Shown piece after piece: positions 2,312 through 16,326 of a stretch of 36,018 bases of DNA. The notes below the pieces were generated by a model. That model ran no database searches and had not been told where the DNA came from. It saw only the letters and a list, made by a program, of their open reading frames with translations. How positions within the stretch are numbered: the stretch's first letter is position 1; each line of letters opens with the position of its first letter. The position numbers and the translations under genes were made by a program. Source of the DNA: a virus; IMG/VR virus record IMGVR_UViG_3300017963_000510, positions 1 through 36,018 of that record; one strand, written 5' to 3'.

Positions 2312-3822
2312 GCTATAGCCCTTGCGCGCGGTCGCGCGGTTACTGGTTTCTCTTCGTACCAATTGATAAACTGAGTGATAACGTCTAACTGGTCGTCGTA
2401 GTCGGAACGCGGATAAGTTATTAGCTCGTCTTCGCAGTCGTTAACCCACTTGCGACCAGCCCAAAGGAAAAAGCGCCCGTCTTCCATTATCGGTGTGGCC
2501 GCGTGCGTACGGCTCTGCTTGTCCCTGTCAACCTTAACAGCTTCTATGATCTTGCCGAAAGTGGGGTTGCGCTTCGCCGTCTGTATCAGCGAATGACCGC
2601 TAGCTTTCTTCTCTATGAGGATTTTGCTTATCTTGTGGCCGAACTGGATAACCGCCCATGCGTTATGTTTAAGGTACAGCCGCAGTAGGTTAGACTCTAG
2701 CTCTGGAAACTCTACCTTATCGCGCCACATATCTAGCAGGTAGTAGCGGTTAAATATGGGCGACTCTTTGACAACGCCGAAGAAACCTATGGCGCTGTAG
2801 TCATTCTCTTCGCCCTTCTCGAAGGCACCGTCAACCGATAGGCCGAAGTAGTCGAAGCTCTCTGGCAACTCTTCGCAATAGCGCAACCATTCGGCCTTGA
2901 CTATGCTGCCCTCTTGCGGCGTAGGCTCTTGGTCTAGTTGCGCTGCAGCCGCCGCGCTGCCTAGCTTACGTCTTAGCTTAGCTATGTAGTCGGCATCAAA
3001 CCTTCCAGGCGTTAGTAAGTCGCCTACTTCGCGTACCCACTTCTCGCCCGTTATCGGCATGGTTATTACCGTGCGTTGCTTGGCTTCCATGGGTAGCTTA
3101 AGTACTGTGAAGTCTTCTAGCTCGCCGGTTTCGCCCATGTGGCCTATAAGGTCGCCGCAATGGCCGCGCTGCATTGTGATAACGAAGTGCGAGGTATTCG
3201 GGTTATTCTTGCGGGTAGATATCGCGGTATCCCATGCGTGACAACCGTCCTCGCGGTGTACCTTGCTATCTATCTTCTTAATGTTGTGCGGATCGTCTAC
3301 GCCGATAATGTCGCCGCCCTGACCTGTGCCAGCGCCATTGACCCCCAATGCTTGGCGTGTACCGGCTATACTGTTCTCGTAGTTGCCTTTTTCGTTTTGG
3401 TCGCCCTTAAGTTGGTAGCGGTCGGCCCAAGCTTGTTGATACCATTCGCTCTTAATGATATTGCGCGAACGTACGTTATCGCGTATCGCTAGGCCGGCTT
3501 CGTAGGCAAAGAAGAGCCAGCGTAGATGCGGGTACTTGATCCAAGCCCAAGGCTGCCAGCATACGGACACGCTCGTAGACTTGGTTGTACGCGGCGGCGT
3601 GAGTATTACCAAGTCGCGTATCTGATTCTCGGTAACTGCCTCTAGGTGTTCGCATACGCACTGTAGGTTTCGCGTACCTTGAAAGGGCGTCTTGGGCTCG
3701 AACACGTGCCAGCTATGGCGTACAAAGTCGTATAGGTGGCGTTGGGCTTGCTCGTACTGTACCTCTTCCAAGGTTGGTACGACCATGCCTTTGTAGGTGT
3801 GAGCCTGTTCGGGGTACGTCAT
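2308..3822 (-). CDS. terL: Terminase large subunit (TerL)
   Basis: This is the ATPase-nuclease motor that packages phage DNA into the prohead. Of 504 residues, 75-84 (LTPPRTTKST) are the Walker A site, which lacks the usual Gly before Lys. DIIGVDDP near 171-178 is the Walker B. The C-terminal RNase H-like nuclease shows LSVDGAF near 330, an IEKKASGHSLIQ segment near 402 (family form E-x-KASG) and a late DDQLD aspartate pair. The layout matches the phage terminase C-terminal family TIGR01630. The start at 3822 overlaps the stop of the upstream 64-aa gene as ATGA, so I prefer it to the TTG at 3858. Confidence 0.95.
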   Translation of the reverse strand: MTYPEQAHTYKGMVVPTLEEVQYEQAQRHLYDFVRHSWHVFEPKTPFQGTRNLQCVCEHLEAVTENQIRDLVILTPPRTTKSTSVSVCWQPWAWIKYPHLRWLFFAYEAGLAIRDNVRSRNIIKSEWYQQAWADRYQLKGDQNEKGNYENSIAGTRQALGVNGAGTGQGGDIIGVDDPHNIKKIDSKVHREDGCHAWDTAISTRKNNPNTSHFVITMQRGHCGDLIGHMGETGELEDFTVLKLPMEAKQRTVITMPITGEKWVREVGDLLTPGRFDADYIAKLRRKLGSAAAAAQLDQEPTPQEGSIVKAEWLRYCEELPESFDYFGLSVDGAFEKGEENDYSAIGFFGVVKESPIFNRYYLLDMWRDKVEFPELESNLLRLYLKHNAWAVIQFGHKISKILIEKKASGHSLIQTAKRNPTFGKIIEAVKVDRDKQSRTHAATPIMEDGRFFLWAGRKWVNDCEDELITYPRSDYDDQLDVITQFINWYEEKPVTARPRARAIA

Positions 3823-4013: not shown

Positions 4014-4246
4014 TTCTTATTGTCCATGCGAAAAATGTCATAAAGACAAAGATTTACTTCCCAATTCGCCCTACCTTCTCTTGGTACCGAAATATGCAAA
4101 CAACTAGAGCAATCTTCGCGCCTTGCATTATTGCAAACGCGGAATTTTTTAAGACTGCTATGCTCCGGTTCGCCGGCGTTGTCTATACCATTAGGTACGC
4201 CGGCGCCAGATTTACCCAACCAACATATAAGCCGATCTTGCGTCAT
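4010..4246 (-). CDS. Small cysteine-rich protein of unknown function
   Basis: This 78-aa protein is linked to both neighbours by ATGA overlaps. It has cysteines at residues 8, 38, 45, 48 and about 67, including a CSSC pair and a following LH, so metal binding is possible. There is no clear zinc-finger family match. It is encoded in the packaging-gene chain upstream of TerL. The region has somewhat more A/T than its neighbours. Function is not assigned. Confidence 0.65.
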   Translation of the reverse strand: MTQDRLICWLGKSGAGVPNGIDNAGEPEHSSLKKFRVCNNARREDCSSCLHISVPREGRANWEVNLCLYDIFRMDNKK

Positions 4247-4506
4247 TTCTTCTTTGCCTTGGCTTTCGACTTCTTAGCCTTGGCCTTGCTGGCTTTCTTC
4301 TTAGCCGGCGCTTTCTTCTTTGCGGGTGCCTTGGGCTCGGCCGGCGCGTCGGCCGTCGCTACTTCTGCTACTGGCTCGTACCGTGCTTCGAACTTCTTAG
4401 CCGGTACAATCTTGGCTTGCTGCCCCTCAGCCTTGACCGTATAGCTGCCGTCGTCGTTTCTCTCGGCGTCTACAACGCCTACTCGTTTCTTCTGATACTT
4501 AGCCAT
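4243..4506 (-). CDS. Lysine/alanine-rich protein with a histone H1-like tail
   Basis: Of 87 residues, the first half (MAKYQKKRVGVVDAERNDDGSYTV...) looks folded. The last 35 residues are low-complexity Ala/Lys/Pro with repeated KAPAKKK and KAKAKKSKAKAK units, like histone H1 or bacterial AlgP-type tails. Such tails bind DNA non-specifically by charge. AGGAAGTAGGA precedes the ATG at 4506, and the stop overlaps the next gene as ATGA. Its position between the DUF5681 protein and TerL suggests a role in DNA packaging or condensation, but this is inference. Ala/Lys tails also arise by slippage and need not be functional. Confidence 0.8.
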   Translation of the reverse strand: MAKYQKKRVGVVDAERNDDGSYTVKAEGQQAKIVPAKKFEARYEPVAEVATADAPAEPKAPAKKKAPAKKKASKAKAKKSKAKAKKK

Positions 4507-4508
4507 TC

Positions 4509-5039
4509 CTACTTCCTTTCTGTGGGTGTGCCTCTAGCTTGCGCCCTAGCTAGCATCTCTTCGAATGCGGATAGCTCGTTATCGTCTAGGGCTTCGAAAT
4601 CTACGTTGGGGTTGCCCTTCTGTACTACCTCAGCCTTAACGTGTTGCGTCGGCCGGCCTTCGAGTCTGTCCATTATTTCCGATATGGCTGGCAGCTTGCC
4701 CTCTGCCGCTAGCTCTAGTGCCTTCTCTGCTATGACTTCGCCGTAGGTGCGGTAGGCGGGGTCGTCCGGGTAACGCTCTTGTAGCTTCTCTGCGATTATC
4801 TCAGATATGTAGCGGGTATGTTTCGGCCGGCCGCCAGGGTTGCCAGAAACACCTTTAGGCCAGCGTCCTAGATTGTCGCGCGGCACTGGTACCCCATGCC
4901 CGTTTTTATGGGGCTTCTTGTTCTTAGGCTTGCGACCGTTGCCGCCGTTGTTGCCGGGACTAATCAAGGGCGCTTCCTGAGCATTCCTGCATAACACGAA
5001 TAGTACTATGCCGAATAGTCTTACCACGAAAAGTACCAT
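4509..5039 (-). CDS. DUF5681-type protein, candidate terminase small subunit
   Basis: The N-terminal half contains the DUF5681 signature NLGRWPKGVSGNPGGRPK at residues about 56-73, which is often found in phage proteins next to TerL. The C-terminal half is helical (ISEIIAEKLQERYP, YGEVIAEKALELAAEGK, AISEIMDRLEGRP). As the first gene of the virion operon and close to TerL, it is the best candidate for the DNA-recognition subunit. The ATG at 5039 has AGGGGG 7 bases upstream. The first 17 residues are hydrophobic and encoded by three 15-bp repeats, which is odd for a cytosolic protein. An alternative TTG start at 4967 has AGGAAG at 6 bases and would give 152 aa without that segment. Confidence 0.75.
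   Translation of the reverse strand: MVLFVVRLFGIVLFVLCRNAQEAPLISPGNNGGNGRKPKNKKPHKNGHGVPVPRDNLGRWPKGVSGNPGGRPKHTRYISEIIAEKLQERYPDDPAYRTYGEVIAEKALELAAEGKLPAISEIMDRLEGRPTQHVKAEVVQKGNPNVDFEALDDNELSAFEEMLARAQARGTPTERK
4997..5034. promoter_or_regulatory. Three tandem 15-bp repeats carrying CGAATAGT
   Basis: CGAATAGT starts at 4997 and 5012, and CGAAAAGT at 5027, giving an exact 15-bp period. The same motif recurs in the control region at 5325-5361. On the minus strand the repeats overlap the first codons of the DUF5681 gene and lie just downstream of a TTGACA (5046-5041). I read them as operator sites for a phage regulator. An alternative is a short coding repeat, since 15 bp equals five codons. 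Confidence 0.5.
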
Positions 5040-5040
5040 A

Positions 5041-5046
5041 TGTCAA
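5041..5046 (-). promoter_or_regulatory. TTGACA box at the start of the virion operon
   Basis: A perfect -35 consensus lies on the minus strand, followed after 17 bases by TAAGAC, a weak -10 match. It overlaps the spacer between AGGGGG and the ATG at 5039. If it is a real promoter, the DUF5681 gene must start further in, for instance at 4967. If it is only spacer, the ATG at 5039 holds. Confidence 0.3.
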
Positions 5047-5195
5047 CCCCCTAGAGCGCAATATAAGCCCTCGAAAGTTACGGGTACCCCAAGATAGGGT
5101 AGGCGGTACTCGCGCCCGGCTGTCGTCAACCTGGCTGGCTGGCTCTGCCGTGAAGGGGTCGGCTGTGATCCGTAGAGCGTCGCGCCGCGAGCCTT

Positions 5196-5243
5196 ACGTC
5201 GTACACGTCGTATACGTACATATACGTAACGGCTATGTAACGG
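5196..5243. repeat. Iteron-like cluster of short tandem repeats
   Basis: Three pairs of direct repeats follow each other. ACGTCGTA occurs at 5196 and 5205 (9-bp period), TATACGTA at 5211 and 5221 (10-bp period), and GTAACGG at 5226 and 5237 (11-bp period). The 9-11 bp spacing is close to one DNA turn, as in binding-site arrays for initiators or repressors. Confidence 0.5.
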
Positions 5244-5258
5244 ATAGGCCACGAGCAA

Positions 5259-5292
5259 GGATGTTGACAAGTTGCGCGCCGGATGTTGACAA
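5259..5292 (+). promoter_or_regulatory. Twin GGATGTTGACAA elements
   Basis: The 12-mer GGATGTTGACAA occurs at 5259 and 5281, 22 bp apart (about two helical turns). Each copy contains a consensus TTGACA, but neither has a good -10 at 16-18 bp. They may therefore be protein-binding sites rather than two promoters. Confidence 0.4.
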
Positions 5293-5324
5293 CCTCCAGT
5301 GGGGCTTGGGCTGGCTTGATAGCA

Positions 5325-5470: not shown

Positions 5471-5697
5471 ATCGTGTACCTGGCGGTAGCTAAGTCGTTA
5501 TCTGATAAGGACTTACGGAAGTGGTTACAACAAATTATTTTAACACGACCCCTATTATATATAAAAACGCCCCTTGTTTCCCTTTTTAGTTTCACATATG
5601 CAACAAAATATGGAAACACCATGCTTTTCACAATATAAGTAGGGTTGTATTAGAGAAATAGCCATTACAAACTGTGTAACTTTGCAAGGGGCATAGA

Positions 5698-5728
5698 GTT
5701 GTGACTACCCACAACGCGATTTGATATA
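5698..5728 (+). promoter_or_regulatory. Possible rightward promoter with an inverted repeat
   Basis: GTTGTG (5698-5703) and CACAAC (5710-5715) form an inverted repeat with a 6-bp spacer. It overlaps a -35-like TTGTGA (5699-5704), and TGATATA follows about 17 bases later. This would transcribe the early operon starting at 5823. Both boxes are imperfect. Confidence 0.3.
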
Positions 5729-5822
5729 GGGGTTTTTGGCAAAAAGTTAGGTTTTTCGCTTGAAACAGCCTCGTAAGTCACTAGGCTCGCTAGCTTTATG
5801 GGTACATGGTAGGGGGTGCGAA

Positions 5823-6368
5823 ATGAAGCGGCGCGGATGGAAGGGTCAGAAGTCTGTAGTCCGGCATGTACTGAGGCTACTTGTGACTAGGTACTTCATG
5901 TATCACGACGGGCGAGCTTCGTCTACCGTCTTGCATAAACAAGACATCGTTACGACTACCTTTCACTGGGAGCTAGATCATTATGCCCCGCAGACTCGTA
6001 CGAGCGACCTAATCAACACCAAGCGGCGCCAGATACCCAAGGATGTGTCTAGCGCGCTCTGGCTGTTGAAGAAACGCAAGCACATAAGGAAGGTCGGCAA
6101 AGGGCATGACGCTAAGTGGCGCGCCACGGACGAAGGGGTAGTCTACTTTCACCGCACCCAAGTCAACGTTATGCAGTTGATAGAATGGGGCATACCGTTT
6201 GACCTTGAAACCTATTGGGCCGATAAGAAGAAAGGCGCACGGCCGCCCTGGCAGTCCGGGTATAGGCTGTCTGGCGACTCGACACGCCGGCTAGGGCGCG
6301 GCCAGCAAGGGTATAGGGGCGATATGGGCAAGCTACGCCAGGGCGCCGAAAGCAGTGAGCCAGGGTAG
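5823..6368 (+). CDS. Winged-helix-like protein, first gene of the early operon
   Basis: This 181-aa basic protein has a central stretch, about residues 60-110, that looks like a winged helix-turn-helix: DVSSALWLLKKRKHIRKVGKGHD followed by AKWRATDEGVVYF, which reads as a recognition helix, wing and strand. The first gene of an early operon next to an operator-rich region is a usual place for a transcription regulator, but DNA target and role are inference. The start was set at the ATG at 5823, which has AGGGGG at a 6-base spacing, instead of the TTG at 5760. The C-terminal 50 residues are Gly/Arg-rich and look disordered. Confidence 0.75.
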   Translation: MKRRGWKGQKSVVRHVLRLLVTRYFMYHDGRASSTVLHKQDIVTTTFHWELDHYAPQTRTSDLINTKRRQIPKDVSSALWLLKKRKHIRKVGKGHDAKWRATDEGVVYFHRTQVNVMQLIEWGIPFDLETYWADKKKGARPPWQSGYRLSGDSTRRLGRGQQGYRGDMGKLRQGAESSEPG

Positions 6369-7866: not shown

Positions 7867-8142
7867 ATGGAAATACCGAAACTCGTTTTAGAAGAGATGG
7901 AAGCCATTGCGAAATCCAAAGCCAAGTTTGCTAGCGAGCTAAGAAGGTGGGCAGAAAGGGCGCACAAAAACTACACAGATACCGCGCGCGCTTACGAAGA
8001 AAAGCGAATGGAAGTAGACGAAATAGCCGTATGGCTTGAAAACGTGCAAGACAAGACGCCGGGCCACTATCAGACGCCACTAGCGGCAATAATCGACGAA
8101 GAGGCCGAAGAAGAGGCCGCCAGGGAAGGCGCCGACGCATGA
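7867..8142 (+). CDS. Small helical, charged hypothetical protein
   Basis: This 91-aa protein is almost wholly alpha-helical and charged (LVLEEMEAIAKSKAKFASELRRWAERAHK; DEEAEEEAAREGADA), so a coiled coil is likely. The ATG at 7867 is preferred over the one at 7798 because a purine-rich AAAGAAG lies upstream. The stop overlaps the next start as ATGA. No family is recognised. Confidence 0.7.
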   Translation: MEIPKLVLEEMEAIAKSKAKFASELRRWAERAHKNYTDTARAYEEKRMEVDEIAVWLENVQDKTPGHYQTPLAAIIDEEAEEEAAREGADA

Positions 8143-8462
8143 CGCCCGACCAAGAACGCAAAGCCAACTCCCTAATTTATGAGCTACGGCTAGAAATGTC
8201 TAGGCTAAGGCTTTTCGATTATGACGATATGAAGCGCTTCCGAATAGAGGAAGTCTACGGCCCGGCCTTGCGTCGCCTACTCAACGAAGCCAACGGTAGG
8301 GATCAAGGTGTAATGTTAACTATGCAAGACTTCGGCGGCCGGCCTTCGACTTTCACGGTTAGCCTAAAGGGCGTTGACATATCTGCAGGTAACAACCTTT
8401 GGGAATTGGCAATGCAGATAAGCGACGCGGTAACGGCATGGGAAGAAAGGCCAAACGGGTAA
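8139..8462 (+). CDS. Hypothetical protein
   Basis: This 107-aa protein is translationally coupled to both neighbours (ATGA in front, TAATG behind). The N-terminal 50 residues are helical and the middle contains strands (VMLTMQDFGGRPSTFTVSLKG). No motif or family is recognised. Confidence 0.75.
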   Translation: MTPDQERKANSLIYELRLEMSRLRLFDYDDMKRFRIEEVYGPALRRLLNEANGRDQGVMLTMQDFGGRPSTFTVSLKGVDISAGNNLWELAMQISDAVTAWEERPNG

Positions 8463-8899
8463 TGCAAACCTTCTTACCGTACTCCGACTTCACAAAAAGC
8501 GCGCGCGTGCTAGACACAAAGCGGCTAGGAAAGCAGCGCGTAGAATGCTTGCAGATACTACGCACCCTTAGCGGCGAGTCGCAAGGCTGGCGCAATCATC
8601 CGGCTGTTAGGATGTGGTACGGGTACGAGTGGGAGTTGTACTGGTATAGCGGTTGCATCATAGACGAATGGATACGGCGCGGATACAAGGATAGGTGTCT
8701 AACGAAAATCAATAGCGTTAGGTGCGCGCATAGCCAAGACTGGCAATACCATAAGCCGCCCTGGCTTGGCAATCGCCGCTTCCACGAATCACACCGGAGC
8801 AACTTACTTCGCAAGAAACCCGAACATTACCGGCAATTCTGGCCGCGACTGTCTGCAGAGTTGCCTTACGTATGGCCTAAGGGAAGGAATGACAAATGA
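8462..8899 (+). CDS. Pyrimidine-dimer DNA glycosylase-like protein (MSMEG_6728 / Pyr_excise type)
   Basis: This 145-aa protein begins MQTFLPYSDFTKSARVLDTK and continues RLGKQRVECLQILRTL and GWRNHPAVRMWYGYE. That is the signature of the family related to T4 endonuclease V. T4 EndoV excises UV-induced pyrimidine dimers using an N-terminal Thr as nucleophile. Here the second residue is Gln and Thr is third, so classical catalysis is uncertain. The start at 8462 overlaps the previous stop as TAATG and puts MQTF at the N-terminus as in relatives. The last 30 residues are basic and aromatic. Confidence 0.85.
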   Translation: MQTFLPYSDFTKSARVLDTKRLGKQRVECLQILRTLSGESQGWRNHPAVRMWYGYEWELYWYSGCIIDEWIRRGYKDRCLTKINSVRCAHSQDWQYHKPPWLGNRRFHESHRSNLLRKKPEHYRQFWPRLSAELPYVWPKGRNDK

Positions 8900-9231
8900 T
8901 GACAGCCAAGCCTTTACCGGCCAAGCAGGCGAAGCAACTAACGCTAGACCTTTGGCTATGGCTAGCCGAAACCGGTGAGAACAAATGCGAATGGCCGAAG
9001 TACGACGAAACAGGCTTAGACGACATGGAAGGTCTTTGCCCACTTTGCCAATACTTCGAAACCATTTGCTTTGACGGTTGCCCATTACGTGACGGCGTTA
9101 CGGTATGCGGTGACGACGAATCTCTGTTTATGCAATGGGATAAGGCAGAGTACGAAAGCGACGAGCGCAAAGCACTAGCCAAGCAAATAGCCGACAAGGT
9201 AGCGGCATGGAATACGGAAGGGTTAGAGTAA
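8896..9231 (+). CDS. Cys-rich small protein, possible zinc binding
   Basis: In this 111-aa protein the central part has C-E-W-P, CPLC, C-FDGCPL and VCG, six cysteines arranged like a small metal-binding knot. Similar CPLC...GCPL proteins occur in many phages without known function. It is linked to its neighbours by ATGA and TAATG overlaps. Helices flank the Cys region, with LTLDLWLWLAETG in front and ALAKQIADKVAAWN behind. Confidence 0.8.
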   Translation: MMTAKPLPAKQAKQLTLDLWLWLAETGENKCEWPKYDETGLDDMEGLCPLCQYFETICFDGCPLRDGVTVCGDDESLFMQWDKAEYESDERKALAKQIADKVAAWNTEGLE

Positions 9232-9539
9232 TGGTAGACATAATCCGCAAGCCTATCGAAGCAATAGTAAACCCGCCGGAAGACTACACTGGTATAGCTG
9301 ATACCATAATGAGCAACCTAGATCATTCAATAGACGAAGTAGTAGCCAAAAGGTTGAAAGCCGGGAAGTTAGTGGCGCAATATGCCGCTTGGAATTTTTG
9401 CGGTACGGTTTGGTTCTGCAAAAAGCGCAAGCAATGGGCGTGCATGGTTGACCGTTACAGGGTTACCATATGCACTATTTTCTGCGATACGCTACAAGAG
9501 ATAATGGACGAATGTTGCAGACGCTTTGGGAGTGAATAA
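9231..9539 (+). CDS. Hypothetical protein
   Basis: This 102-aa protein starts at the ATG at 9231 in a TAATG overlap. It has a helical N-terminus and a cysteine- and aromatic-rich middle (AWNFCGTVWFCKKRKQWACMVDRY), probably a small alpha/beta fold. No family is recognised. Confidence 0.75.
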   Translation: MVDIIRKPIEAIVNPPEDYTGIADTIMSNLDHSIDEVVAKRLKAGKLVAQYAAWNFCGTVWFCKKRKQWACMVDRYRVTICTIFCDTLQEIMDECCRRFGSE

Positions 9540-9542
9540 CCA

Positions 9543-10241
9543 ATGACAACGCTGTATAAGTGGACGAAAAGCAACGGCAGAACCTACGACTATACGCAAT
9601 GGAAAAAGGGCAAGACGCATAAAGCTAGGCCGAATATATCTAAGCCATTATGTAGCGAGTACTGGATACACGCCTACCAGTCAATAGTGCTTGCGGTGTT
9701 ATTTGATTGCTGGCACGCGAACTATCGGCACAACCTATTGCACGGCAACGGCCTTTTGTGGCTGGCTAAAGGACACGTATCAAAGTCGGATGGTATCAAG
9801 ATCGGGACGAAGAAATGCACGCTCGTAAAGCTGATAGAGGAACCGCGCTTTACCTGCAAGCAAATACTGGCGGCCGTACTTTCGGTTTTTTCCTTGAGGG
9901 ATTTGCCGGACTACGCAAGCCAGCCAATACGCCAATGGCTTGAAGGCAAAGAACGCAACAACAACCAAAACTTAATGGCGGCAATTGAAAGGCTACAGAG
10001 AACGTCTAGGTATTGTATAGTCGCCCATTCGATACACGATTGCTTGAAATTCGCGGAAAGAATGAGCAAGCCGGAAATACTTAGGCCAGCACGCGAAGCG
10101 ATTTACCTATCCGTAAAACGCGCCGGCACTAATGCCGGGCTAGACTTAAAGTACTGCAAACAGATAGCCGAAACAATCGACACCGCCGTTAAGAAAGAAG
10201 GCGCGCTAACTGGCGGTCCTACGGAGTGGCCGACGCTATGA
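9543..10241 (+). CDS. Hypothetical protein with an LC-x(3)-W-x-HAY motif
   Basis: This 232-aa protein starts 3 bases after the previous gene. Residues about 35-75 (LCSEYWIHAYQSIVLAVLF... HANYRHNLL... GLLWLAKG) resemble a phage family seen in Siphoviruses, where PLC-x(4)-HAY and a later KCTLVKLIEEP are conserved. I cannot name the family with certainty. The region after about 110 is helical and more variable. No catalytic site is evident. Confidence 0.75.
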   Translation: MTTLYKWTKSNGRTYDYTQWKKGKTHKARPNISKPLCSEYWIHAYQSIVLAVLFDCWHANYRHNLLHGNGLLWLAKGHVSKSDGIKIGTKKCTLVKLIEEPRFTCKQILAAVLSVFSLRDLPDYASQPIRQWLEGKERNNNQNLMAAIERLQRTSRYCIVAHSIHDCLKFAERMSKPEILRPAREAIYLSVKRAGTNAGLDLKYCKQIAETIDTAVKKEGALTGGPTEWPTL

Positions 10242-10381
10242 AAAACCAACGATCAACGCACAAGCAACCGCCCATAGACTACTTCCGGCTTATCTTTTGG
10301 ATCGTCGCTGTAAACATTAGCGCTGTGTTTGTATGCGGCCTTGTCTACGGCGCCGCGAAGTTGCTTAATTGGATGTTTTGA
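10238..10381 (+). CDS. Small single-span membrane protein
   Basis: This is a 47-aa gene too short for most gene callers. The ATG at 10238 overlaps the previous stop as ATGA, and the TGA ends at 10381, 1 base before the next ATG. Residues 16-40 (FRLIFWIVAVNISAVFVCGL) form one membrane helix after a charged N-terminus. It forms a pair with the next gene, which is also a membrane protein. A holin or regulator role is possible but unproven. Confidence 0.7.
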   Translation: MKNQRSTHKQPPIDYFRLIFWIVAVNISAVFVCGLVYGAAKLLNWMF

Positions 10382-10382
10382 T

Positions 10383-10586
10383 ATGACGATCCCAATACTC
10401 GCCATTTGTATTTACTTCGTTGTCGGTGCAATCCTGATAGCGGCAACCTATTGGCGCAAGAGAAAGACCGACAACATAAAGATAACGCTAGCCGGCTGCA
10501 TTGCCGCGCTTGTCCTTTGGCTGCCCGTTCTTGTTAACGCTTGCTATTACGCCTATGTAGAAAAACGCAAATGGAAGGGCAAGTAA
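10383..10586 (+). CDS. Small two-span membrane protein
   Basis: This 67-aa protein has two clear hydrophobic helices (IPILAICIYFVVGAILIAAT and ITLAGCIAALVLWLPVLV) separated by a basic loop KRKTDN and followed by a basic C-tail KRKWKGK. This is the size and topology of a class II holin. The location in the early operon, away from the lysis-like genes at 22.6-23.4 kb, argues for caution. The ATG at 10383 was chosen because it begins right after the preceding stop. Confidence 0.7.
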   Translation: MTIPILAICIYFVVGAILIAATYWRKRKTDNIKITLAGCIAALVLWLPVLVNACYYAYVEKRKWKGK

Positions 10587-11038
10587 TGGCTAACAAAGAC
10601 CTAGCAGCGGACGTGAGGGAGGCGTTCATGTCATATGACACGGACGTTGCCGCCATTCACATCATGGAGTGTGACGGTTGTGCTGGTGGGTGTAGCGAGT
10701 CCGCAGAAGTCATGCTTCGTTTCGCCCGCCGCCTGCTGTCTCGGGAGCGGTTGGGGGAGGAACAGATACACAATGAGTTTATGCGGGGCAATCTCGCGAT
10801 ACGACTGGCACGGAAGGAAAACGAATTATCAAAGAAGCATATTACTTGGGATCAGTCTACTTGCGCTAATGTTGCTGTTGCCCTTTGGATGCAGGACCGC
10901 ATCTTCGGCCCGGTTGAGGAGTGCGGGACGTGTGGGGGTGAGAAGGTAGTCGATAGCGGAGGCCAGAACCCGGATGGCAGTTGGATCGACATAGCCTGTC
11001 CCGACTGCGGCCCTGCCGAGGACGGGGAGGGAGAGTAA
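10586..11038 (+). CDS. Zinc-ribbon-like protein ending in the shared PAEDGEGE tail
   Basis: This 150-aa protein has a CDGCAGGC cluster near residue 30. Near 113-142 it has CGTCGG-x(n)-CPDCG, a DnaJ-type or ribbon zinc site. The middle is helical. It ends in GPAEDGEGE, which recurs in the next three proteins. The GGAGGGAGAG that encodes the tail also serves as ribosome binding site for the next ATG at 11038. Base usage differs from the genes before it (more GGG, fewer CTA codons). The enzymatic role is unknown. Confidence 0.8.
   Translation: MANKDLAADVREAFMSYDTDVAAIHIMECDGCAGGCSESAEVMLRFARRLLSRERLGEEQIHNEFMRGNLAIRLARKENELSKKHITWDQSTCANVAVALWMQDRIFGPVEECGTCGGEKVVDSGGQNPDGSWIDIACPDCGPAEDGEGE
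11009..11030 (+). repeat. Junction repeat, copy 1
   Basis: This copy contains CCTGCCGAGGACGGGGAGG, which encodes the PAEDGE tail of the gene ending at 11038 and provides GGGGAGG upstream of the ATG at 11038. Confidence 0.9.
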
Positions 11039-11289
11039 TGGGGATATATCTCAAGCTGATATGTGACGGTTGCGGTGTGGTAGTGGAAAGCGAGAAGCGG
11101 CTAGAGTCCAGGTTTGTCTCGCTGTCGGGACGTTCGCATGGTCTCGGCAGACGTGTTGTCAATGAAATAGGGCCTATTGTTCCCGGGGGGTGGGAATCGC
11201 ATGACCCGCTCACGGGATGCACATACTGCCCTGAGTGTTGGGCTGGGATAACAGAAGGCCCTGCCGAGGACGGGGAGGGGGAAGCATGA
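11038..11289 (+). CDS. Small zinc-finger-like protein with the shared tail
   Basis: This 83-aa protein has CDGCG near residue 9 and CTYCPEC near residue 62, a likely four-Cys metal site joined by a Ser/Arg-rich linker. It ends EGPAEDGEGEA. The ATG overlaps the preceding TAA, and the stop overlaps the next ATG. The function is unknown. Proteins with two CxxC pairs in phages are often nucleic-acid binding, but that is only family-level inference. Confidence 0.8.
   Translation: MGIYLKLICDGCGVVVESEKRLESRFVSLSGRSHGLGRRVVNEIGPIVPGGWESHDPLTGCTYCPECWAGITEGPAEDGEGEA
11257..11278 (+). repeat. Junction repeat, copy 2
   Basis: This copy is identical to copy 1 over 22 bases. It encodes the PAEDGE tail of the gene ending at 11289 and supplies the ribosome binding site for 11286. 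Confidence 0.9.
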
Positions 11290-11528
11290 TCGTTACTCTT
11301 TACGGAGGCCCAAAGGCTAACCGACGATATCGTCTACGAAACGAGAACGTTTCGTTCCTTCGCTGTGGGGTCGGACACTATGCTCGCGTAAGGGGTGGGA
11401 AACGAGACGCTTTCTATTGGTACGATTTCGCCGCGCCTCTCGCTATTAGACGAGGCAATATGCTTGTTCCGGTTCAAGACTTCAAGCCTGCCGAGAACGG
11501 GGAGGGGGAGAACGATGCCGAAGCGTAA
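11286..11528 (+). CDS. Small hypothetical protein with a variant shared tail
   Basis: This 80-aa, basic, strand-rich protein (MIVTLYGGPKANRRYRLRN, HYARVRGGKRDAFYWYDF) has a C-terminus reading KPAENGEGENDAEA, a variant of the neighbours' tail. It overlaps the next gene by 14 bases because its stop lies past the repeat. No family is recognised. Confidence 0.75.
   Translation: MIVTLYGGPKANRRYRLRNENVSFLRCGVGHYARVRGGKRDAFYWYDFAAPLAIRRGNMLVPVQDFKPAENGEGENDAEA
11487..11506 (+). repeat. Junction repeat, copy 3
   Basis: This copy matches copy 1 with one change (GAGAAC instead of GAGGAC), which turns the encoded Asp into Asn. It supplies GGGGAGGGGG for the ATG at 11515. Confidence 0.85.
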
Positions 11529-11739
11529 ACACAAAGTGCCGCAAGCCTTCATGGACGAATTGAACGAAATGTGGAATCGCGTCAATGAATGGAGTCCTCC
11601 ATCAGATAACATAACCGGGAAGTGGACACACGACAACAGCAGGGGGGCCTATGAAACAATAGGTTATATTCTGTCTCGTGTGAAGCCCGAGCAGCCGGGG
11701 GAAGGCCCTGCCGAGGACGGGGAGGAGAACAAACAATGA
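11515..11739 (+). CDS. Small hypothetical protein with the shared tail
   Basis: This 74-aa protein has a basic N-terminus (MPKRKHKVPQAF) followed by an amphipathic helix (MDELNEMWNRVNEW). The C-terminus is GEGPAEDGEENKQ. It is the fourth consecutive gene ending in this peptide. Its start lies inside the previous gene, behind a strong GGGGAGGGGG site. The function is unknown. Confidence 0.75.
   Translation: MPKRKHKVPQAFMDELNEMWNRVNEWSPPSDNITGKWTHDNSRGAYETIGYILSRVKPEQPGEGPAEDGEENKQ
11704..11725 (+). repeat. Junction repeat, copy 4
   Basis: This copy is identical to copies 1 and 2 over 22 bases. The gene that follows (11736) does not carry the tail and has the usual codon style of the genome, so this copy marks the right edge of the block. 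Confidence 0.9.
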
Positions 11740-11945
11740 CAACCCCACAACTACAAACCCCGCGCCTTAAGGCCGGCGAAATAGTAACGCTATACCAAGA
11801 CCCGGTAACGTGTACGAAGTTTGACGCCAACGCCGAGCTAGTACAATTCATAGGCCGCGAAGACACACTAGAGCGCTGGCTAGTCGAGTTGCTAGACGAG
11901 TCTGGCGGCGTGGTAGAGCGTTGGCTTAACTTGGAGTGCTACTAA
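11736..11945 (+). CDS. Small hypothetical protein
   Basis: This 69-aa protein is coupled to the previous gene by ATGA. Its pattern (LKAGEIVTLYQDPVTCTKFDANAELVQFI, WLVELLDESGGVVERWLN) suggests a small beta-barrel. It resembles other short beta-rich proteins of this operon (for example 12081) in length and opening, but no named family is recognised. Confidence 0.8.
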   Translation: MTTPQLQTPRLKAGEIVTLYQDPVTCTKFDANAELVQFIGREDTLERWLVELLDESGGVVERWLNLECY

Positions 11946-13102: not shown

Positions 13103-13765
13103 ATGAAGGGCAAAGCACTACTCAACCTATCGTACGTCGTACTAGCGCTTAGCGTTTCGCTATTCGTCGGCAAGAAAGGCGTTAAGCCCAAAGAGATAGA
13201 CTACGGCAAGCTATCCATACCAAGGATTAGCAACACTATTGACTTTCCGGGCCAGGTAGAGCCGCTAGAGAAACAACCCATAGGCACCAACGGCAAGCCA
13301 GTCAATACAGATAGCCAATGGAAGCTAATCCTTAAGTACGTTGGCACGCTATCGCACGACGTATCAGGGTACACACCCTACGACGATCCTGGCTTCGGCA
13401 AGCGCTACGCCAACCGGAACTTCCTGCACGGCGGCCGGCTGTATCACCCTTCTCGGCCATTCCGTACGACTGAGACACACGTACGCCGGCACCATTACAC
13501 GGTAGCGATACCGAAGAGTTACGCGCACTTGCACGAAGACCTAATATACGACGGCCTGTATTGGAATCATCGTTACCGGCTAAAGATCAACGGCTACACG
13601 CCGGCCGACGTATACGCGGTGCCGCGCGACCGTATCATTACCTATGACAGATTTGATACACTTTTTACAGGCCATAACGCTGTACGCCGCGCTAAGAAAT
13701 GGGGAGTAAGGAAACGCCTTATAGAAGTCTACCGCTACGATTGGGTACTAGAGGTACAGCCATGA
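13103..13765 (+). CDS. Membrane-anchored or secreted protein with a possible 3D (double-psi barrel) domain
   Basis: In this 220-aa protein residues 4-22 (KALLNLSYVVLALSVSLFVGKK) form a signal anchor or signal peptide. The C-terminal 75 residues contain YTVAIPKSYAHLHEDLIYDGLY, then ITYDRFDTLFTGHNAVRRAKKWGVRKRLIEVYRY. The spacing of the D-x-F-D element, the A-x-x-W-G-x-R and the final V-Y resembles the 3D domain of lytic transglycosylase-like proteins. One of the three diagnostic Asp residues is not obvious. If the call is right, this is the best candidate for the phage's cell-wall hydrolase. No other endolysin is visible. Confidence 0.55.
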   Translation: MKGKALLNLSYVVLALSVSLFVGKKGVKPKEIDYGKLSIPRISNTIDFPGQVEPLEKQPIGTNGKPVNTDSQWKLILKYVGTLSHDVSGYTPYDDPGFGKRYANRNFLHGGRLYHPSRPFRTTETHVRRHHYTVAIPKSYAHLHEDLIYDGLYWNHRYRLKINGYTPADVYAVPRDRIITYDRFDTLFTGHNAVRRAKKWGVRKRLIEVYRYDWVLEVQP

Positions 13766-14319: not shown

Positions 14320-15041
14320 TACTAGAGAAACAAGACCAAACGATAGAAGTACCAAAGCTTAGCAGCCCGTTAGCTTTCGACTTCGAAACGATAGCGAATG
14401 AAGACATAGTAGGCAAGCTACCAGAACCGAAACCGGACTCACGACTTAAAGACCCTGAGAAGATCAAAGCCGACATAGAGAAGAAGAAAGCCAAAGCGGT
14501 AGACAAGATGCCGCTTAACCCGAACACGGCGCGCATTGTCGCTTGCGGCTTCGCTGGCGTACGTGCCGATAGCGGCGAACTCTGGCAAGATTGCCTAGTA
14601 ATGACACGGCAGACGGGCGAAGCGTACTTGCTGTACCGTATATGGGATTGCCTAGCAGAGTCTAAGCTATTCGTTACCTTCAACGGCAACGGCTTTGACT
14701 TGCCCATGCTGTTACGGCGCGGTATGGCGTTAAACATAATACCGGCCGTAACCATTGCGCGCGGTCGGTACGACATACCGCCGAAGGGCAACCATTACGA
14801 CTTGCTGCAAATCCTGTCTAGTTTCGGTAGCATGGAAACTGGCGGCCTTGACGGTATCTGCAAGGCTGTACTTGGCGTAGGCAAGACGATAGAAGGCGCT
14901 GGCGAAAGTGACCAGATAGGCGAGCTATGGAAGCAAGGCAAGCTAGAGGAAATCGGCAAGCGCGCGAGTCACGACGCCGGGCTTACGCTGCAGCTATGGC
15001 TTAAGGCTCGCGGCGTCTACTTTGACCAGCCGGCCATATAG
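14316..15041 (+). CDS. DnaQ-like 3'-5' exonuclease
   Basis: This 241-aa protein has DEDD-type exonuclease motifs. Exo I is AFDFETIA (D22, E24). Exo II is FVTFNGNGFDLPML near residue 118. The third is RASHDAGLTLQLW near residue 217. This is the layout of the phage and bacterial predicted PolB-like exonuclease family (pfam10108-type), which degrades single-stranded DNA from the 3' end. Its place next to a Sak4-like ATPase fits recombination or end processing. The start overlaps the previous gene as ATGA. Confidence 0.9.
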   Translation: MILEKQDQTIEVPKLSSPLAFDFETIANEDIVGKLPEPKPDSRLKDPEKIKADIEKKKAKAVDKMPLNPNTARIVACGFAGVRADSGELWQDCLVMTRQTGEAYLLYRIWDCLAESKLFVTFNGNGFDLPMLLRRGMALNIIPAVTIARGRYDIPPKGNHYDLLQILSSFGSMETGGLDGICKAVLGVGKTIEGAGESDQIGELWKQGKLEEIGKRASHDAGLTLQLWLKARGVYFDQPAI

Positions 15042-15051
15042 GGGATGCGTT

Positions 15052-16326
15052 ATGATTTGGAAGCGCGCAGTACACGAGCCGAAAGGACCAAAAGTAGTAA
15101 TGGCTGGCCCTACTGGCAGCCGCAAGACACGTACCATAATGGCCGCTGCAGACAGTGACAAAGACCCTAGACTACTGCTAATAGACTACGAAGACGGCGG
15201 CGACTGGTTCGAAAAAGACTTCAATTTTTCGCGTGTGAAGATAGAGCAAGTCATAAGTCTAAGTGACCCCAGATACGAAATAACTAACCAAGAGATAGAG
15301 AACCTCAGACGCGACCGCTTCGTATGGCTACCCATGCTTGAACGCGGCCAGGTACACGGCGTAGACTTTGCGCGCGTTACTCTGCTAGACCGTATCGCCA
15401 AGAATCCTATTGATATGGTTAGTGTAGACTCTGCAACGGTTCACTATTCATGGACTATAGACAAATGGCATGATATATTCATAGTGCGCGAGAAAGGCGC
15501 TGGCAACAAACGCGACTACTACACGCTGCAACCGCGCGACTGGGATAAGATCAAGCGCGAGTTTTGGCATTACCTAGCGCGCCTAAAGGCTTTACAGGTT
15601 GGTGTATTTGTCACTTGCCACACGAAAGACAAATACGCCGATAGCTCTAACGGTGCCGACTTCCTTAAAAAGATAGGCATGATGGCTGATATCGAAAGGA
15701 AGTTGCCGTACTACATGGATACCGAAATTTTGATAGAGCGCGAAGAAGAGGGCAAGGCTAAGAGCGCCGAAAAGAGACACGACAAGTTTGTAGCCATTGT
15801 CAAGAAAGACAGAACGCATAGCCTACCCGGTAGGTTTGTTTGGGTTAACGGCGAAGACGAAGGCCATAGCAAGTCATTTGTCGAGCGCATGCGCGGTATC
15901 ATTTCTTGGCAAGGCAGAGTAACCGAAGACCTAGACGAAGCAGCACCGCCGCAAGACTCGCCAGAGAGGGAAGCGGAAGCCATACGCGAAGCAACGCAAA
16001 GCGAGCCAATGGCAACTAGGGATAACCTAGAACGGCTCGTATACCTAAAGGACAAGCTAGGCATAGCTACCGAAAAATGGCGTAGCGTACTTGAGAAATT
16101 ATTTGATGTTGAAACCGCAAAGCGCTTAACCAAAAAACAAGCCAACAGCCTTATAGAAATGCTCGTACAGAAACTACCCAACGACCAAGAGGCTCTAGCA
16201 TACGAAGCGCATTTTGCGAGAAAGGAAACCGGTACCGACGCCGACGGGTTTCGCAATAACGAAGGTTGCCGAAGCGTGCCTGACCGTATTGGGCTTTCCG
16301 TACAAGATGGTAACGCTAAGTACTGA
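15052..16326 (+). CDS. Sak4-like AAA ATPase (RecA-fold recombinase)
   Basis: This 424-aa protein has a Walker A at residues 19-26 reading GPTGSRKT, where Arg replaces the usual Gly before Lys-Thr. LLLIDYEDGG follows near 42. DMVSVDSATV near 120 is the Walker B, and GVFVTCHTKDK near 183 is the sensor region. The layout matches phage Sak4 / AAA_24 single-strand annealing ATPases. After residue 290 a linker leads to a helical module (LERLVYLKDKLGIATEKWRSVLEKLF, LTKKQANSLIEMLVQKL) usual in this family. Partners are the exonuclease in front and the DUF669-like protein behind. Confidence 0.85.
   Translation: MIWKRAVHEPKGPKVVMAGPTGSRKTRTIMAAADSDKDPRLLLIDYEDGGDWFEKDFNFSRVKIEQVISLSDPRYEITNQEIENLRRDRFVWLPMLERGQVHGVDFARVTLLDRIAKNPIDMVSVDSATVHYSWTIDKWHDIFIVREKGAGNKRDYYTLQPRDWDKIKREFWHYLARLKALQVGVFVTCHTKDKYADSSNGADFLKKIGMMADIERKLPYYMDTEILIEREEEGKAKSAEKRHDKFVAIVKKDRTHSLPGRFVWVNGEDEGHSKSFVERMRGIISWQGRVTEDLDEAAPPQDSPEREAEAIREATQSEPMATRDNLERLVYLKDKLGIATEKWRSVLEKLFDVETAKRLTKKQANSLIEMLVQKLPNDQEALAYEAHFARKETGTDADGFRNNEGCRSVPDRIGLSVQDGNAKY

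Follow-up and report, generated by a model that had tools for sequence, protein, structure and literature searches.

Start-associated sequences (SAS), described in Cluster K mycobacteriophages (PMC3203893), with a similar motif in Microbacterium Cluster EF phages (PMC7302621), are repeated, unusually conserved sequences at the Shine-Dalgarno (SD) position of successive genes. The SAS is a 13-bp motif, GGGATAGGAGCCC, found a few bases from gene starts and mostly in intergenic gaps of over 50 bp (in TM4, one of ten lies inside a gene), and its extended form carries 17-bp inverted repeats upstream. Conserved boundary sequences (PMC3233612) are short stretches of conserved DNA at gene boundaries that enclose different genes in different phages, and there is continuing debate over whether such short shared sequences are where phage genes are shuffled, or whether genes are joined at random (PMC3945230, PMC3233612).

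The lambda nin region offers a further likeness in layout, with small genes chained by ATGA-type overlaps, the SD of each lying inside the end of the preceding gene, and with NinB, NinC and NinG sharing a two-residue AA end. The locus described here provides a concrete and testable case, in which one repeat is both the end of a gene and the start signal of the next, and two structurally unrelated phages carry it on different genes.

A chain of small genes joined by a repeat

The window, meaning the whole stretch of DNA analysed, is a circular viral contig; it measures 36,018 bases and has a terminal repeat of 123 bases. The phage is a siphovirus whose genes for an HK97-type head, portal, terminase and tape measure lie on the minus strand, and those for a RecD-like helicase and primase on the plus strand. 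Its terminase has counterparts in Roseobacter phages, at about 39% identity; 80 relative loci collected through the terminase had no other gene in common with the window and no array, and queries with g1, a 232-aa gene and the primase recovered no close relative of the phage among viral contigs. The genes of interest and their surroundings are as follows.

positions 1 to 36,018, the window, record IMGVR_UViG_3300017963_000510
10238..10381, plus strand, small membrane protein upstream of the array, left synteny mark
10586..11038, plus strand, g1, 150 aa, zinc-ribbon-like C terminus, tail CPDCGPAEDGEGE, end CGPAEDGEGE
11038..11289, plus strand, g2, 83 aa, two CxxC pairs, tail EGPAEDGEGEA
11286..11528, plus strand, g3, 80 aa, without known relatives, tail KPAENGEGENDAEA
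11515..11739, plus strand, g4, 74 aa, without known relatives, tail EGPAEDGEENKQ
11736..11945, plus strand, g5, 69 aa, window-type codon usage, without the tag, SD supplied by repeat copy 4
13103..13765, plus strand, 220-aa protein downstream of the array, right synteny mark
11009..11034, plus strand, repeat copy 1, coding 3' end of g1 and SD of g2
11257..11282, plus strand, repeat copy 2, coding 3' end of g2 and SD of g3
11484..11509, plus strand, repeat copy 3, the most diverged, coding 3' end of g3 and SD of g4
11704..11729, plus strand, repeat copy 4, coding 3' end of g4 and SD of g5, where the block read as imported has its right edge

The genes g1 to g4 were assigned to no Pfam or PHROG family, and no homologues were found in named phages or plasmids. 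They are tightly packed: the start of g2 overlaps the stop of g1 (TAATG), g2 and g3 overlap by ATGA, and the start codon of g4 lies inside g3.

The initial annotation had claimed that four consecutive genes share one C-terminal peptide, and this is what we find, with peptide cores of PAEDGE, PAEDGE, PAENGE and PAEDGE at the ends of the genes that terminate at 11038, 11289, 11528 and 11739. The encoding DNA is likewise as it had been described, since the 22 bases GGCCCTGCCGAGGACGGGGAGG are identical in copies 1, 2 and 4 (25 bases are common to copies 2 and 4), and the central 19-mer, CCTGCCGAGGACGGGGAGG, is exact at 11012, 11260 and 11707 and carries a single change at 11487. Similarity drops abruptly on both sides of the repeat, DNA identity falling to background. 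Dinucleotide shuffles produced no copy of the repeat (expectation 0.00 with up to 3 mismatches). The four window copies are read in one common frame, which has a probability of 1/27 by chance; a pure SD role does not need a common frame, and a role as gene end explains it.

The second role that had been ascribed to the repeat, as the translation signal of the following gene, is also borne out by its spacing and predicted pairing. GGGGAGG ends 7, 7, 9 and 10 bases upstream of the next ATG in copies 1 to 4, and pairing of the repeats with the anti-SD is predicted at −11.0 to −11.5 kcal/mol. For almost all of the other window genes that were checked, the values lie between −4.4 and −7.8 kcal/mol (the exception, the gene at 13103, reaches −10.9), so that the strength of the repeats exceeds that of nearly all native genes checked and is typical of G002, the second phage described below.

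The repeat is confined to this block, with no copies at the other operons of the window phage. Elsewhere, exact 19-mer matches amounted to two in viral and seven in genome collections; these were single, mid-gene or in the wrong frame, and were taken as chance. A degenerate search for the pattern PAE[DN]GE gave 51 loci and no array, and the same junction test applied to 1.3 Mb of other viral DNA returned no junction repeat longer than 17 bases.

Shorter junction repeats do occur in other phages. An independent small-gene chain in L012 (IMGVR_UViG_3300021171_000026; 3756, 3905 and 4048) has its own 14–15 base junction repeat, CAGGCCAAGCCGTGA, in three copies (0.03 expected) that provide a QAKP end and a GTG start, and L139 (3217/3402) and L143 (5533/5865) have 15–17 base repeats at two junctions apiece, taking in SD, stop and start. 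L012 was also considered as a relative of the window through an SD leader, CCGCCGAGGACGGGGAAGGGGAG, and was rejected, the leader being single-copy, non-coding and not kept in the relatives of L012.

G002, a probable imported block and the likely origin of the element

The recurring element was located in one other contig. This contig, G002 (IMGVR_UViG_3300028920_000098, 48.6 kb), was found by scanning viral contigs with GCCGAGRACGGGGARGG, and by its terminase and structural genes it is a phage different from that of the window. It holds four copies of the element.

G002 4844, in gene B, DCGPAEDEEDSNA, gene end and SD of the next gene
G002 5286, in gene C, GHAEDGEGE, gene end and SD of the next gene
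G002 5851, in gene E, CPDCGAAEDGEGT, gene end and SD of the next gene
G002 9271, in gene G, CPDCGPAKDGEGE, inside the gene, which runs on for 28 more residues

The gene that follows gene G is served by a different SD and not by the element. The two loci are bracketed by related genes: on the left, the window membrane protein (10238-10381) is similar to a G002 protein at 3646-3762, and on the right, window 13103-13765 and G002 8113-8778 share 79% amino acid and 75% DNA identity. Relatives of this 220-aa gene were seen only in G002 when phages and 45 other tag-like records were searched, and none in plasmids.

On comparison of the two sequences, the same element is shown to end, or to lie within, different genes at the corresponding locus of G002, a contig from a structurally unrelated phage, and this is what a modular array predicts. 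To that extent the modular cassette array put forward in the initial annotation stands; the notion of a free-standing tag that went with it does not. G002 contains no homologues of g2, g3 or g4 and, because these genes lack a counterpart there, is regarded as a relative of the donor and not as the donor.

Other repeats were observed in G002. Gene C (4866-5309; L192) includes six 33-base repeats encoding DDEYDAKxKPL, a low-complexity Gly-Asp/Tyr/Ser tract lies upstream of it at 4065-4255 (L192), and two consecutive genes at 45673 and 45855 (L194) end in KEKA and have in common an 18-base sequence, AAGGAGAAGGCATGAAGG, that spans stop, start and SD.

The unusual base usage previously remarked on for the block is confirmed by codon usage and by segmentation. 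By codon log-likelihood, each of the 25 native window genes tested groups with the window and each of the four tagged genes with G002, and a blind maximum-scoring segmentation yielded one G002-like segment on the plus strand, 10613-11727, with a score of 39.7 (the maximum in 500 simulations of the null was 12.0). Given G002-like codons in g1 to g4 and window-like codons in their neighbours, the window phage most likely acquired the g1–g4 chain as a single block from a lineage resembling G002. The left edge of the segment falls in the first conserved patch of g1 and the right edge in repeat copy 4. The codons of g5 are strongly window-like and its SD is supplied by that copy, so the chain appears to have been inserted in such a way that its last repeat came to serve a gene already present. 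Elsewhere in the region, slightly G002-like codons (0.047 per codon) occur in one further gene alone, at window 8494-8899, which is possibly a separate import.

The relationship between g1 and G002 suggests where the element came from. The protein g1 is homologous to G002 gene G (8917-9354), a zinc-ribbon gene with the element inside it (42% identity over 100 aa, E 2e-25); its N-terminal part is also homologous to gene A (4359-4664) and its C-terminal part to gene E (5560-5874). Near-identity of the DNA between g1 and G002 is limited to patches of 30–56 bases, and the repeat lies inside the last of these, TGTCCCGACTGCGGCCCTGCCGAGGACGGGGAGGG.

10598..10627, plus strand, g1 patch 1 (DLAADVREAF), 30/30 identical to G002 4365-4394
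10730..10769, plus strand, g1 patch 2 (RLLSRERLGEE), 38/40 identical to G002 4491-4530
10883..10938, plus strand, g1 patch 3 (QDRIFGPVEECGTCGG), 91% identity with G002 gene G over 56 bases, recurring in gene A and, partly, in gene E

Where the amino acid is shared, the codon is also the same in 28 of 30 cases within the patches and 4 of 17 outside them for g1 against G002, and in 30 of 31 and 4 of 12, respectively, against gene A. The patches in these counts are themselves defined by identity, hence a run test without preset patches was applied; it gave a moderately significant clustering (p = 0.009 and 0.05, with 0.45 for the 220-aa control gene). Since the element is the last of several patches of the g1 family, it probably derives from the 3' end of this mosaic zinc-ribbon gene family, from which it would also have become attached to other genes, and it is not a free-standing tag.

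Junction segment, peptide tag and other explanations

Taken together, these observations make it reasonably probable that the repeat is a portable segment, comprising a 3' end and an SD, that joins genes at their junctions and likely derives from the g1-type family, with the four-gene block imported, genes being swapped by recombination and the shared peptide arising as a by-product. Four neighbouring genes would have the same end because the segment is a reusable gene-joining piece that carries the next start signal. The small genes would be chained by overlap, the SD of each lying within the shared end of its predecessor; g1 to g4 would have arrived as one block, leaving the last repeat as the SD of the native g5; and recombination between copies of the repeat or the patches may then swap genes in and out, since a newcomer cut at a patch would retain its frame and stop codon and bring along a working SD for the gene that follows. 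What weighs against this reading is that G002 is the only known relative and is not the direct donor, and that no genome shows the locus before or after such an exchange. The common frame of the window copies, the continuation of gene G past the element with a separate SD for its successor, and the no more than moderate significance of the patch clustering count against it as well.

A broader form of the proposal is possible, if doubtful, namely that this is a hypervariable small-gene locus of structurally unrelated phages, where interchangeable pieces are joined at near-invariant coding patches, the last patch acting as a plug (an in-frame end with a strong SD) that lets any gene carrying it be stacked in series and still be translated, and where a phage recombinase would use the patches as homology arms. 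An AAA_24 ATPase is encoded in the window at 15022-16326 (Pfam PF13479, 3e-8). The AAA_24 family includes Sak4-like proteins, and we take the ATPase to be a possible Sak4-like recombinase.

The initial annotation had further suggested that the acidic tail may bind a common partner. A functional tag selected on each protein, be it an acidic docking or a degradation signal, with the SD overlap as a secondary matter, would account for the in-frame, C-terminal position of all four window copies and three of the four in G002, and for the acidic tail that every copy encodes. The pattern of substitutions speaks against it. Codon third positions in the repeat all match, being as conserved as the other positions (p ~1e-6 if selection acted on the peptide only), and across eight copies, GGAGG is invariant while the replacements D>N, G>E, P>H, P>A and E>K occur in the PAEDGE core, together with one silent change that is seen twice. 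Five of six, or five of seven, of these changes alter the amino acid, against 76% expected without constraint (small numbers, from eight copies); the absence of any sign of purifying selection on the peptide therefore points away from a selected tag. Furthermore, g5 and the G002 genes D and F belong to the same chains and lack the peptide, and in the structure model of g1, itself of low confidence (pLDDT 56), the last eight residues are among the least certain parts and the tail is modelled as disordered, again with low confidence. Binding of a common partner is accordingly not borne out, a functional tag is rather improbable, and we infer that the PAEDGEGE peptide is a by-product. For annotators, the locus is a warning against taking a C-terminal peptide for a functional tag on the ground that neighbouring phage proteins share it unchanged.

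The remaining explanations concern the origin of the copies and what else might maintain them. Tandem duplication of one gene, whose bodies then diverged to leave the repeat as a remnant of paralogy, draws on the CxxC zinc-ribbon-like segments that precede the element in g1, g2 and G002 genes B, E and G, and on the further patches common to g1, A, E and G. The claim that the protein bodies are unrelated holds for g3 and g4; g1 and g2 both end in a Cys-x-x-Cys zinc-ribbon-like segment, g1 having in addition a true homologue in G002. Duplication is nevertheless unlikely, since g3 and g4 resemble neither g1 and g2 nor each other outside the repeat (g1 against g3 is borderline, p 0.027 among 15 pairs), DNA identity is at background beyond the repeat edges, the body of G002 gene C is unrelated and repeat-built, and divergence sufficient to erase the bodies should have altered the silent sites of the tail too. 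A specific DNA or RNA site bound by a regulator, a recombinase or a translation factor, whose place at the junctions is incidental, like the Cluster K SAS, would explain why the repeat exceeds the needs of an SD, with 17 conserved bases upstream of GGAGG. The element alone can also fold into an SD-covering hairpin of −8 to −11 kcal/mol; this hairpin is weak and absent from the predicted structure in the 91-base context, and was dropped as the role of the repeat. The 17 upstream bases vary in G002, where the SD is constant, and copies occur in the imported block but at none of the phage's other operons, which leaves a binding site with a low probability. Finally, acidic Glu/Gly-rich ends could be common because in-frame GAGG or GGAGG encodes Glu and Gly, and indeed the unrelated loci L175, L048 and L164 have AEDGEG- or AENGEG-like gene ends that double as the next SD and look like convergence. 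For the array this explanation is barely credible: convergence accounts neither for 22–25 identical bases in four successive genes nor for the further patches shared by g1 and G002, and as the origin of the whole array it is largely refuted.

Comparison with known gene-boundary systems

The repeat shares with the SAS its SD function alone. The repeat, GGCCCTGCCGAGGACGGGGAGG, is different in sequence from the SAS and longer, all four copies are coding ends instead of mostly intergenic elements, and the inverted repeats of the extended SAS have no equivalent here, the sequence upstream of the four copies being about 25% identical. Because sequence, coding position and the missing upstream inverted repeat all differ, the repeat, judged on these sequence features, is not a Cluster K-type SAS.

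With a lambda ninR-type chain the array has only its layout in common: the longest stretch shared between the nin junctions is 10 bases, compared with 22–25 in the window. The defining feature of conserved boundary sequences, different genes between copies across phages, is present here in g1 to g4 of the window versus B, C, E and G of G002. The window boundary differs from those described in that it is fully coding, gives unrelated proteins a common tail, recurs at four consecutive junctions and contains the SD of the gene that follows. The locus fits the conserved-boundary-sequence model, in an unusual and fully coding form.
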